A stretch of 64,000 nucleotides of DNA, from NCBI RefSeq assembly GCF_020921035.1, contig NC_063160.1, positions 2,190,501 to 2,254,500 of the forward strand. The letters run 5' to 3'. The notes beneath the pieces are model-generated. The model made no database searches. It saw only the letters and a list, made by a program, of their open reading frames with translations, and was not told where the DNA came from. This document shows, in pieces, positions 14,645-63,834 of this stretch (positions within the stretch are counted from its first letter, which is position 1; each line of letters opens with the position of its first letter). Position numbers and translations under genes: made by a program. Source of the stretch: Rhodamnia argentea. Its lineage: Eukaryota; Streptophyta; Magnoliopsida; Myrtales; Myrtaceae.

Positions 14645-16048
14645 ATGGTACTTTTGCTCGGTTATGATCTGAAGGTGGCGAATCCAAGCGGAAAGGGCAG
14701 CAAGGAGGACGGCGTCGAGGCGGAGGAGGAGGAGGACAGAGACTTCCATGCATGGCTCAACTACCGGCTGCCGTCTCCGCCTCTTGAGCCCTCTCTTGCT
14801 TCCGGACCTTCAGCTTCATCGGCGTTCAGCAGACAGCGAGAAATGTCCGCAATGGTTTCCGCTCTGCGCCGCGTCGTTTCTGGAACAGTATTGCCAGGCG
14901 ATGATCAGCAGCAGCAGTTGGATTTGGGGGAAGGGTATTGCGGCGGCGGCGGTTCGGCATCGTTGCTCGGTCGGTCCAGCTCTTTGGATTCCGTCGGTGC
15001 TGGACAGAAGAGAGGAAGGGAAGATTCGACCTCGTCGTCTGAGTTCTTGGTATCTGAGCTTCCGCGAGTTCGTGGCGATCATGCGCAGGCAGGCTCGTCG
15101 TCATCATCAGGTGCCAGAGGTAAAGCTTATTAAGGGAATCACGAATTAGCTTGCCTGTGATGTTTAGATCAGGAACATAATCTCCCATCTTCACTAGCTC
15201 TCCATGCTAAAAATAAGTGAAGAACTTTTCAGCAGGTTCATACGAAAAAAAGTTCGTAGAATTTCGGCGGCGCGTGAATTTCACGAATAGCTATAGTACG
15301 ATTCGATTTCGATACAAGATCCTCTTTCATACCTCATGATATGCACAGCTAGAAAAGCGAAAATGGATTCTATACGAACGGGCCGCAATCACCAAGAGTT
15401 TTTTCTAGCATAAGATTATGAAATTGATCTTCTTCCTTCAGTTGCAGAAGGTCACGCAGGCTCAACAACTGTTCAGACAGCAAAAGCAGATCAACCAACA
15501 CATGGTGCTCCTCCAACGTATGAATACACCTACGAGGCCCCGACACCGGCGGCAGTGACATTGAACCCGACTCCAAGGAGGAAATACAGAGGAGTGAGAC
15601 AGCGCCCGTGGGGGAAGTGGGCGGCCGAGATACGAGATCCATTCAAGGCCTCAAGGGTGTGGCTCGGCACATTCGACACGGCCGAGGCGGCCGCTCGGGC
15701 CTATGACGAGGCCGCCCTCCGGTTCAGAGCCAACAAAGCCAAGCTTAACTTCCCCGAGAACGTCCGACTCCGGCAACAACCGGCTCCTGCAGCCTCTGCG
15801 GCCAATCCCCCAGAAACCCACTTCGCCGTTTCCCATGAGTTGCCGGCTTCTGGCAATCCCAACCCAGTTGGCTGCGACGGGCAGACTTCTTCGCAGTGGT
15901 ATCTTGAAAATAATTTCCACGATGTCCATCAAGAGCGAGCTGAGAGACGACCCATGAGTTTGTATGAGCAGATGTTGTGGTCCAACTCGTTGCTGGGGAT
16001 GCAGCTTCCGCCATCTTTCTCGCTCTCTCCTCCTCCTCCTCCTCCTCT

Positions 16049-16085
<37 letters not shown>

Positions 16086-16241
16086 AGTTCAGTGCTCGCG
16101 CCAGCTCCGAGCTCTTCTCTTTTCACGTCTTCTCGGCTGATCGCGACGGACTCCCAAGAGGGTCGGACAGGTGGCGGAGCGGCTGTTTTTCATCTGCCTC
16201 CATGGTCAGATTCTAGCCATCGCAGTTCTTCTCCTGGATAG
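14645..16241 (+). CDS. ABR1-like AP2/ERF transcription factor (group X)
   Basis: DNA-binding transcription factor acting in the nucleus. ABR1 and its relatives bind GCC-box or related sites in ABA, stress and wound responses. Proposed exons are 14645-15119 and 15442-16241, 424 residues. The donor AGAG|GTAAAG and acceptor TTCCTTCAG|TTG join in phase (1 nt + 2 nt). Exon 1 is acidic (EAEEEEDRD) and carries [10 protein letters not shown] and GQKRGRE, both ABR1-like. After the intron come a YEYTYE motif and one AP2 domain from about residue 206 to 264, with [19 protein letters not shown] (Ala14/Asp19 of the ERF subfamily) and LNFPENVRL. The tail has LYEQM, a Pro run and a Ser run, and ends [15 protein letters not shown] damaged second copy lies 5.5 kb downstream. 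Family assignment is firm; the exact orthologue is inferred. Confidence 0.9.
16026..16086 (+). repeat. Coding microsatellite (CTC)n(CAT)n
   Basis: A CTC/CCT run followed by about eleven CAT/TCA units inside exon 2 of the ABR1-like gene. It encodes six prolines, Leu-Pro, then thirteen serines. It also makes misleading Met-, Ile- and Asp-rich ORFs in other frames. Length polymorphism would change the protein without a frameshift. Confidence 0.85.
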
Positions 16242-20909: not shown

Positions 20910-21066
20910 TGGAATTCCTCCTTTTCTGCAGCAGCCATTCTGGACAGTCCCTTCCATCTTCAGCCCACCAATCATGACTCAGCCAACCATTCTGACTATT
21001 TTCTGGAGACTTGCGAAGCAGCACATCCGCTCTTCATCTTCTTCTTCTTCCGGTTAAAAGAAGGTC

Positions 21067-21681
21067 ATGCAGCCTCAACAACTGTTCAGACAGCAAAAGG
21101 CATTGACAATGGACCCAACTCCAAGAAGAAAATACAGAGGAGTGAGGCAGAGGCCGTGGGGGAAATGGGCGGCCGAGATAAGAGACCCGCTGAAGGCCTC
21201 GAGGGTGTGGCTTGGCACGTTCGACACGGCCGAGGCGGCGGCTCGGGCTTATGACCAGGCTGCCCTACGGATCAAACGCAACAAGGCTAAGCTCAACTTC
21301 CCCGAGAACGTCCGGCTCCCGCCACAACCGCCTCCCACAGCCTCTGCGGCTGATCCTGCACCGACCTGCCTCGCCGTTCCTGACGAGTTGCCCGCTTCTG
21401 GCAATTCCAACGCCGCTAACTGCGACGGGCAGACTCCTGTGCAGCGGGTTCTTCAAGAGAATTTCAGTGAATACCACAGCGATCTTCTTCTTCTTCAAGA
21501 ACGAGGGCAGAGACGAGCCTCGAGTCTGTATGAGCAGATGGCGTGGTCCGGCTCGTTGTTGGGGACGCAGCTTCAGTCATCTTTCTCGCCCTCCTCCTCT
21601 TCTCCTCCACCATCATCATCGAGTTCAGGGCTTGCACAAGCTCCAAGCTCTTCTCTTGTCATGCCTTCACGGCGGATCTAG
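21067..21681 (+). CDS. ERF paralogue lacking exon 1, C-terminally truncated
   Basis: Tandem copy of exon 2 of the ABR1-like gene, 204 codons from ATG 21067. The AP2 domain is complete from about residue 22 to 80 ([29 protein letters not shown]), with FRA changed to IKR near its end. Exon 1 is absent. The acceptor CAG of the parent is changed (CCGGTTAAAAG), and a net 65-nt loss before the domain means the leader is read in another frame ([10 protein letters not shown]). LYEQM is kept. A TAG at 21679 stops translation 33 codons early; the downstream frame remains open to the parental stop at 21783. It could act as a short DNA-binding competitor of the parent, or be a recent pseudogene. Expression is unknown. 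Confidence 0.55.
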
Positions 21682-24805: not shown

Positions 24806-24930
24806 TGTCGATGATGATACATCCGAAGGCTTGTTTCTCGGAAAACATTCGCAGTGGCCGCCTAAGAGCTTTCGCCTTCGCCGGGCTTGAGAGCTGATGC
24901 TGCTATAATCCTTCCTTGGATGTCTGAGAC
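24806..24930 (+). ncRNA. SNORD14: U14 box C/D snoRNA, copy 1
   Basis: C box ATGATGA (24811-24817) and D box CTGA (24924-24927), with a short terminal stem GTC/GAC. Domain A contains AACATTCGCAGT, complementary to the ACTGCGAATG segment near the 5' end of 18S rRNA. Domain B, CCTTCCTTGGATGT, sits directly before the D box and pairs with ACATCCAAGGAAGG of 18S rRNA. By the +5 rule it guides 2'-O-methylation of the C in ACATC. U14 is also needed for 18S processing. It acts in the nucleolus with fibrillarin, Nop56/58 and 15.5K/L7Ae proteins. Confidence 0.93.
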
Positions 24931-25101
24931 TTTTACTATCTTGTACTTGCTATGTTGACCTCGATTTCAATAGCTTTGGATTAGGATTTGGTCAGTCTTG
25001 TGATGCGCATGCGATGTTACATTGGCTGTTGACAAGTCATTATGGAATTTTTGTTCTGTGGAAAATTTGTTGTGAAGACTGATTATTTTGGTAATAATGT
25101 T

Positions 25102-25226
25102 CGCCGATGATGACAATTTGAAGGCTTGTTTCTCGGAAAACATTCGCAGTGGCCGCCTGAGAGCTTTCGCCTTCGCCGGGCTTGAGAGCTAATGCTGCTA
25201 TAATCCTTCCTTGGATGTCTGAGACC
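25102..25226 (+). ncRNA. SNORD14: U14 box C/D snoRNA, copy 2
   Basis: C box ATGATGA (25107-25113), D box CTGA (25219-25222). Both 18S-complementary domains are unchanged. Differs from copy 1 at a few places (GCCTGAGAGC for GCCTAAGAGC; GCTAATGC for GCTGATGC). Flanked by GCC/GAC-type short stems. Confidence 0.93.
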
Positions 25227-25416
25227 TTGTTACCTTGTACTTGCTATGGTGACCTCGATTTGGGTTGCATTGGATTAGGATTTGCGCAGTTTTGTGATTT
25301 GCATACAATTTTTACGTTTGTTGCTGATGCGTGGTCATGATTTCTATGGCAACTGTATGGAGTTTTTCTTCTGCGGAAAATTTGTTCTAAAGAGTGATTG
25401 TTTTGGTTATAATGTT

Positions 25417-25541
25417 CGCTGATGATGACAATTTGAAGGCTTGTTTCTCAGAAAACATTCGCAGTGGCCGCCTAAGAGCTTTCGCCTATGCCGGGCTTGA
25501 GAGCTAATGCTGCTATGATCCTTCCTTGGATGTCTGAGGCC
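25417..25541 (+). ncRNA. SNORD14: U14 box C/D snoRNA, copy 3
   Basis: C box ATGATGA (25422-25428), D box CTGA (25534-25537). Guide domains intact. Most diverged of the first three in the middle: CGCCTATGCCGGG replaces CGCCTTCGCCGGG, and TATGATCC replaces TATAATCC just before domain B. Confidence 0.92.
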
Positions 25542-25664
25542 TTGTCATCTTGTACTTGCTATGGTGACCTTGATTTCGATTGCTTTGGATTAGGATTTTG
25601 GTCAGTCATGTGATGTGCGTACAATGTTACATTGTTAAGAGTGACTCTTTTTGGTAACGATTAA

Positions 25665-25789
25665 TATCGATGATGACAATTTGAAGGCTTGTTTCTCAAA
25701 GAACATTCGCAGTGGCCGCCTAAGAGCTTTCGCCTTCGCCGGGCTCGAGAGCTAGTGCTGCTTCAATCCTTCCTTGGATGTCTGAGATC
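25665..25789 (+). ncRNA. SNORD14: U14 box C/D snoRNA, copy 4
   Basis: C box ATGATGA (25670-25676), D box CTGA (25782-25785). Both 18S-complementary domains intact. Has TCTCAAAGAACATTC where the others have TCTC(G/A)GAAAACATTC. Last of the array; the repeat spacers end here. Confidence 0.92.
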
Positions 25790-39292: not shown

Positions 39293-39489
39293 TCATAGGT
39301 TATGTATGGGCGGCTTCTTTCGCACCGGAGTATAATCCATTGCAAACAAGTCATTTGCGTCGGCCGGTTGCCCTTCTTTCGCCACAAGCGTTTCCGCGTG
39401 ATTCGTTCCTTCTCCACCGATGCTCTCCCGCAAGTTTCGAGCTACAGAACAAGGAAAGATTAACACTCAATGATCCAATCCAACATCTC

Positions 39490-39549
<60 letters not shown>

Positions 39550-39629
39550 CCGGTAGTAGCCGTAATGGAGGCAAAACAAAGGAAGACGAGCACGAAGAGG
39601 ACGAGATGCTTGCATGGAAGTTTGGCCAT
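39293..39629 (-). CDS. GOLVEN/RGF/CLEL secreted peptide precursor
   Basis: Two-exon gene on the minus strand: exon 1 39629-39551, exon 2 39441-39293, total 75 residues. Exon 1 encodes a signal peptide (MAKLPCKHLVLFVLVFLCF, then ASITA). The donor ACCG|GTAATC and acceptor TTGTTCTGTAG|CTC join in phase (1 nt + 2 nt). Exon 2 gives a short polar propeptide and ends LFAMDYTPVRKKPPIHNL. DYTPVRKKPPIHN (residues 62-74) fits the 13-residue RGF/GLV/CLEL consensus: an Asp-Tyr pair for tyrosine sulfation, central prolines, and a PPIHN end. Such peptides are secreted and sensed by RGI/RGFR leucine-rich-repeat receptor kinases in root meristem maintenance and gravitropism. Precursors are usually 75-120 residues. 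The intron contains a GA microsatellite that obscures the gene. Confidence 0.88.
39494..39546. repeat. (GA)n microsatellite, intronic
   Basis: About 26 uninterrupted dinucleotide units starting 56 bp from the exon 2 border and ending 5 bp from the donor splice site of the GOLVEN-type gene (minus strand CT repeat directly after GTAAT). Expansion could affect splicing. Confidence 0.95.
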
Positions 39630-62809: not shown

Positions 62810-63567
62810 CATGGGACATCCTTGTCTTCTCAGACAATGAGCCACAATTTGCAACCAAGTGTTGCTCCCCAAAGGACAGGACAGGCAAGGTGGAAGTTGC
62901 ACTCAACTAATCAATATGAAAGTGTTTGGTGCAGAGTCTGAATATGATTGGGCCTTGTGGGCCTCGCCTCCAATTTACCCACTTGTGGCAGTCAAAATCA
63001 CTGGCCAGAACTTGCCCACTCCTATCTTACAACAGCTCTAGCCACCAATGCCCATTTCTATCCACATGAATCCTTCTTTCCTTTTGATCAAGGGAATAAA
63101 TAGAGCCCCCTGCTAACACATTTCTACATTTCCTATGTTGGCCTTTCTTGATTCTCTTGGATGCACATGAAATTCGATAATTCTCATCACAATTTGACTT
63201 TCTACTCAACAGACTTTTAAACGATATCAATTTGCATTCGAAGTGGTAACGTGCGTGGTTTAGTTTAGTTAAATCGACTTTCCCCTCTATTCGGATGATG
63301 CATTTGTCTCGAATCCATCGTTGTCTCTCCACTTAACCCATTAAATCTAATCAACAGATACCATATCTCATCCCATCACCACAAACGGCCCCTCCTCTTG
63401 CTGTTGCGCGATCCAATAAAGTCCTGTCCTGTCGATGCCAACACATGCCGCATTATAGAGCTAATAGCACTGAAATAGGTATGCACAGGGTGTGTGGTGC
63501 ACTACATTTCTGTCTCTATATTAGACGTGGTAGAGTCTGCCAATTCCTCCACAAGGTCTCTCTGAAC
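62810..63567. promoter_or_regulatory. Upstream region of the DUF3511 gene
   Basis: Holds ATTGGGCC and GTGGGCC (site II-like, about 62949-62965), a TATA-like AATAAATAG (about 63096) and CTCTATATTAG (about 63513), the latter 55 bp before the ATG and the better core-promoter candidate. No coding exon found. Confidence 0.35.
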
Positions 63568-63834
63568 ATGGAGAAAAGCAAGTCATTCAACGGCTACTCA
63601 GCATCTTACTCAGAAATAAGGCTCGAGTTCGAGGACCGGTCCAAATCGTATAGCTTCAATGGCCCGAGCAATGTGCCCCACGGGTTGGAGAATTCCGGCA
63701 ACCCGGAGCTCAAGAGGAGGAGGAGGGTGGCCAGCTATAACATGTACACGATGGAGGGCAAGCTCAAGTCCTCGCTGCGCCACAGTTTCAAGTGGATCAA
63801 GAGCAAGTTCTCCGACGATATCTACGACATGTAA
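63568..63834 (+). CDS. DUF3511 domain small basic protein
   Basis: Single exon, 88 residues. An upstream frame is open from 63445, but the conserved family start is MEKSKSFNGYSASYSE at 63568. Family hallmarks follow in order: RLEFEDRSKSYSFNGPS, then NPELKRRRRVASYNMYTMEG and KLKSSLRHSFKWIKSKFSD, ending near the C-terminus as usual for the plant-specific DUF3511 family (80-110 residues). The C-terminal half is strongly basic and could be amphipathic. No signal peptide or membrane segment. The molecular function of the family is not established. Complete and apparently functional. Confidence 0.93.
   Translation: MEKSKSFNGYSASYSEIRLEFEDRSKSYSFNGPSNVPHGLENSGNPELKRRRRVASYNMYTMEGKLKSSLRHSFKWIKSKFSDDIYDM

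Follow-up and report, generated by a model that had tools for sequence, protein, structure and literature searches.

Arabidopsis CLEL6/GLV1/RGF6 is one of the closest described systems for the locus studied here. Its mature peptide is DYPQPHRKPPIHN, and its precursor has two S1P sites, RRLR and RRAL (PMC7162652); the same paper describes the biogenesis of both CLEL6 and CLEL9. Introns are present in most CLEL/RGF genes (PMC8708909, PMC4016512). The Pfam family PF21529 takes its name from GLV1/2, GLV2 being the same gene as CLEL9/RGF9.

Our locus lies in a stretch of 64,000 nucleotides of the Rhodamnia argentea genome (C11:2190501-2254500), which we call the window. Its predicted peptide DYTPVRKKPPIHN is like that of CLEL6 in the DY start, the basic centre, the PPIHN end and the Met before the Asp, but unlike it in the central residues. 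The CLEL6 precursor has two S1P sites, while the window precursor has one candidate found by eye, RNLR. Two other relatives are compared here as proteins alone. The uncharacterized guava (Psidium guajava) protein J3R85_002740 is 89% identical over the whole length and has the same 13-mer and trailing Leu, but one Thr fewer at the splice junction. The Eucalyptus globulus protein ACJRO7_033986, named Root meristem growth factor 9, is 79% identical over the whole length; it ends in DYTPAQKKPPIHNL and shares the trailing Leu, but its 13-mer differs at two residues.

Our analysis suggests that an intact nuclear gene lies at this locus, split by a phase-1 intron and encoding a GOLVEN/RGF/CLEL precursor that belongs to the GLV1/2 subgroup and is of the Group R type; we put the probability of this reading at about 94%. 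The gene looks real, and it would add one GLV1/2-type member of a well-known family, with paralogues, for Rhodamnia argentea.

Family identity of the predicted precursor

The predicted 75-aa product matches Pfam PF21529 (GLV1-2) over residues 10-74 with an E-value of 5e-17 and 63 bits, the cut-off of the family being 28.1 bits. An earlier note, made from the DNA letters, had read the locus as a two-exon RGF/GLV/CLEL gene and had proposed a profile search of the product against the family, which gave the match above. That identification is now supported by this curated family model, by predicted relatives that are unbroken over the junction and by two paralogues that share the position and phase of the intron in their top-scoring models. 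The note had also named broken peptide codons in close relatives as evidence that would count against the gene; at the protein level none was seen, the guava 13-mer being identical.

A search of 5.8 billion proteins returned three matches, from guava, Eucalyptus globulus and Carpinus (41% identity over 92%), each of them carrying PF21529. We then found 123 homologues at E up to 0.01 using an alignment-profile search. Among the matches listed, all 120 homologues (of 123 found) have PF21529 in precomputed annotation; their labels are often Root meristem growth factor 9 and in some cases GOLVEN 1 or 2. One PF21529 precursor from Actinidia chinensis (79 aa) bears the name "Ankyrin repeat domain-containing protein", probably a misname.

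The residues DY and PIHN are conserved in 121 of 121 aligned rows, counting the query, a figure that is biased upward because the candidates were chosen by shared words. The window has a single occurrence of the pattern DYx7PxHN. Among 200 base-shuffled windows two contain it, and among 200 windows generated with the same dinucleotide frequencies none does. Positions 7-8 of DYTPVRKKPPIHN are KK, which agrees with the description of Group R as having R/K at 13-mer positions 7-8 instead of His at 8 (PMC8329595). According to the same paper, the peptide of lycophyte Group R precursors is followed by 9-18 residues; in the window precursor a single Leu follows it. We do not take such a tail as defining in seed plants, because the description concerns lycophytes and most GLV1/2 rows end at the 13-mer (112 of the 121 aligned rows have a gap at the last column).

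The precursor had been placed at the short end for the family, a claim that does not hold within the subgroup. Its 75 aa are ordinary against a median of 77 among the 120 matches listed, where 28 of 120 are shorter with fragments counted, in a comparison that admits only proteins of ~41-131 aa (0.55 to 1.75 times the query length). Precursors across the family are reported to be typically 79-182 aa (PMC11939866) or to range over 39-277 aa (PMC8708909).

Gene structure

The features of the locus are collected in Table 1. Joining exon 1 to exon 2 on the minus strand gives the 75-aa precursor MAKLPCKHLVLFVLVFLCFASITATTARNLRESIGGEGTNHAETLVAKEGQPADANDLFAMDYTPVRKKPPIHNL, whose C-terminal end is DYTPVRKKPPIHN-L. 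The exon and intron coordinates given in the earlier note proved exact (junction 39551/39441, 109-bp intron, 75-aa product).

Table 1. Features of the predicted GLV1/2-type gene, in window positions
Feature	Positions	Strand	Description
Exon 1	39551-39629	minus	79 nt; ATG, signal-peptide-like region, first base of the junction codon (MAKLPCKHLVLFVLVFLCFASITATT + G)
Intron	39442-39550	minus	109 nt, GT-AG, phase 1; top-scoring of 153 candidate splicings
Exon 2	39293-39441	minus	149 nt including the stop TGA; has the ARNLR stretch, then a variable pro-region and the peptide with its trailing Leu
Codons of the predicted mature 13-mer DYTPVRKKPPIHN	39299-39337	minus	from translation and alignment
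TATA-box-like TATAAA	39706-39711	minus	pattern match; ATG 77-82 bases downstream; putative promoter element
Branch-point-like TTAAT	39459-39463	minus	pattern match; A 18 bases before the intron end; putative
TGA in the exon-2 frame, within the intron	39467-39469	minus	from translation of the unspliced message
Microsatellite (TC)26.5 on the gene strand, (GA)26.5 on the plus strand	39494-39546	minus	starts at intron base 5

The signal-peptide region and the peptide occur together in none of the listed single ORFs. The ORF bearing the peptide has 57 aa and a GTG start inside the intron, and the ORF with the signal-peptide region reads on into (Ser-Leu)n. The gene had been called hidden, which is true of single-ORF views and limited to them; relatives are already predicted in guava and eucalypt. 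Intron-split genes for small peptide hormones are easily overlooked in a single-ORF reading.

The N-terminal region has a strongly hydrophobic stretch that may be a signal peptide, the highest 12-residue hydropathy mean being 2.99 at residues 10-21 (window starts sampled every third residue). One additional Thr codon (39551-39558) lies at the donor edge beside the repeat, which guava and E. globulus do not have in the alignment; it puts a different residue at position -3 of the likely cleavage site of the signal peptide. The donor consensus is AG|GTAAGT. The donor of this gene, ACCG|GTAATC, fits it at 5 of 8 bases, and those of the C1 paralogues described below at 6 of 8. An Rfam search at the gathering threshold and a tRNA scan gave no match at the locus.

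The splice junction

The splicing proposed in the earlier note scores best among all the models that we considered. We enumerated the two-exon GT-AG models ending in the peptide within a 2.3-kb stretch, with exon 1 of at least 40 nt and an intron of at least 60 nt, and scored the resulting 153 products against a profile made without the query, from those 95 of the 120 homologues that begin with M and have 65-100 aa. The proposed splicing ranks 1 of 153 with 89.1 bits, compared with 78.2 bits for the runner-up, which uses the same ATG and donor. The other in-frame splicings inside the gene itself were rejected: of the 16 GT-AG pairs within 39293-39629, the proposed pair scores highest.

The homologous precursors are continuous over the junction site in the alignment, so the intron is strongly implied even without RNA. 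As is usual in the family, the model places the intron between the region of the signal peptide and that of the peptide. Two isoforms of a Diospyros lotus protein named GOLVEN 2, X1 and X2, differ by one Ala exactly at the junction, a difference that a tandem acceptor in this intron could explain.

Splicing is obligatory for the peptide because of the intronic TGA in the exon-2 frame. We tried 41 repeat numbers (0-40 units) for the unspliced message and rejected intron retention as a source of the peptide, since the exon-2 frame is interrupted in each case by the TGA at 39469-39467. The sole ATG in this frame after the TGA is that of Met61, which adjoins the peptide. As the unspliced message is without the peptide at any length tried, the number of repeat units cannot change the spliced protein.

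Related loci in the genome

We searched the Rhodamnia argentea genome (346.66 Mb, 74 contigs) and found that both exons map to this single locus, with no second one at an E-value of 0.001 or below. Fourteen matches came from the family search. Five of them are above the cut-off, namely this locus, two loci on C1, one peptide exon on C4 and one on C3. Among the nine matches below the cut-off we inspected one, on C6, which carries DYSQVRRRRPIHN. The same search in a control set gave a match in one of 14 genomes, a methanogen, and none above the cut-off.

The two C1 paralogues, L026 and L027, have peptide exons above the PF21529 cut-off and the peptide DYTPARKKTPIHN, which differs from that of the window gene. 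In their top-scoring models the intron agrees with that of the window gene in place and in phase (phase 1), but it is 381 bp long and its longest TC or GA run is 4 bases at most. The two introns are identical at 378 of 381 bases. These near-identical GLV-like copies lie ~200 kb apart on G000:C1, at 35.35 Mb (L026) and 35.55 Mb (L027), which could mean either that a segment was duplicated recently or that the assembly contains it twice. For the loci on C4, C3 and C6 (L023, L024 and L025), no convincing model of a first exon was obtained within 4 kb upstream, so for the conservation of the intron within the genome we rely on the C1 copies, a single recent pair. The peptide exon of L024 (G000:C3, 31.04 Mb) encodes DYAQPHRKPPIHNEEP, which resembles the Arabidopsis CLEL6 peptide.

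Predicted processing of the precursor

By family likeness, splicing would join the signal peptide to the peptide-bearing exon, and the precursor would then enter the secretory pathway and, by analogy with CLEL6 and CLEL9 (PMC7162652), lose its signal peptide. The site-1-type subtilase SBT6.1 might cut the pro-region, possibly at RNLR, which directly follows the junction and resembles an S1P site by eye. In the first alignment ARNL is found in each of the four rows, and the Arg that follows it in the two Myrtaceae but not in Carpinus. Sulfation would fall on Tyr63 (of DY), with hydroxylation of a Pro as a possible further change. Release of DYTPVRKKPPIHN could come from a cut before Asp62 by an aspartate-dependent subtilase, for instance SBT3.8. 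The Asp62-Tyr63 context and RNLR are compatible with sulfation and maturation by subtilases. Mature peptides of this family are perceived by RGI receptor kinases, on which the released DYTPVRKKPPIHN would be expected to act in growth control.

The intronic repeat and other readings of the locus

In general, two kinds of other reading can be considered, one that concerns the gene as a whole and one that concerns the repeat. A chance join of two unrelated ORFs would be extremely improbable, given that homologous precursors run on over the junction, that the joined product matches PF21529 at the E-value given above, and that the join ranks at the top of the 153 splicings. It is also very unlikely that the locus is a decayed or unexpressed copy whose frame has been kept by chance. 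The additional codon at the junction and the weakness of the donor at +5 would fit such a pseudogene, but both exons are intact, the 13-mer is the same as in guava with 89% identity of the whole precursor, and the genome has no second copy at E up to 0.001 that could serve as the working one. An intact gene is the reading that we prefer. The family match, the junction score, the introns of the paralogues and the many similar tracts across the genome suggest a real gene with an old intron, to which a repeat of a common kind was added locally.

The repeat is a perfect AG/CT array of 53 bp with 26.5 copies. The earlier note had described the intron as nearly half GA repeat, and the array indeed makes up 53 of its 109 bp, or 49%. 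Four bases, GTAA, precede the repeat, which fills donor positions +5 and +6. We think it most likely that the array is a chance microsatellite, which adds length to the intron and encodes nothing in the spliced message. The simpler history would be that the intron predates the repeat; alternatively, one lineage may have lost it.

Tuning of splicing by the length of the repeat is possible, though with low probability. In its general form, the proposal is that the TC array controls the gene post-transcriptionally by setting donor strength, intron length and the binding of polypyrimidine proteins, so that the spliced fraction and the peptide dose depend on the allele. Dicot introns have a working minimum of roughly 70 nt. 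Without the repeat this intron would have 57 nt, below that minimum, and this speaks for the proposal together with the repeat bases at +5 and +6 and with the finding that a retained intron gives no peptide at any of the 41 repeat numbers. On the other side, (TC)26 tracts are common across the genome, with 8009 exact matches counted as overlapping positions, so the distinct arrays are fewer; the reversed-pattern control is uninformative here, being itself a TC/CT tract. GGTAA beside (TC)9 occurs at 20 sites (this one counted) versus 12 for the reversed pattern, and the arrangement of a donor plus TC is therefore not singular. The C1 paralogue introns, moreover, have no TC or GA run above 4 bases. 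We consider post-transcriptional control of this kind unlikely. A more specific version makes the TC array a length-variable dial, in which the number of units would set the spliced fraction and thus cause heritable, fast-mutating differences in GLV peptide dose between individuals; this we regard as quite improbable. If the repeat does alter splicing, the gene would offer a simple natural model for microsatellite control of hormone dose. The RNA fold of 301 nt around the intron is not unusually stable (z 0.89; equal or greater stability in 82 of 100 shuffles). In a literature search covering the starts of abstracts, no study of a GLV intron with a GA repeat came up, which is weak evidence of absence.

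Another proposal leaves splicing aside and takes the GA/TC tract as a docking site for the plant GAGA-binding BBR/BPC factors, which would affect transcription or chromatin. Transcription is assumed to start ~30 bases after a TATA-like element. The tract lies downstream of such an element, roughly 130-185 bases from the presumed start, and GA motifs are bound by BPC proteins (PMC11666369). As such tracts are common across the genome, we find this role for the tract doubtful, and a chance microsatellite inside an intact gene remains our preferred reading.

Other genes in the window

We scanned 20 of the 76 open frames of at least 90 aa in the window against Pfam. Two AP2-domain open frames ~5 kb apart on the plus strand (15414-16238 and 21058-21678) are probably ERF-type transcription factor genes, and an open frame with DUF3511 (E 1.7e-22) lies at 63337-63831 on the plus strand. 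Four consecutive SNORD14 (U14) snoRNA genes were found at 24806-25789 on the plus strand, with 70.7-75.7 bits each; clustered U14 genes are known in plants.
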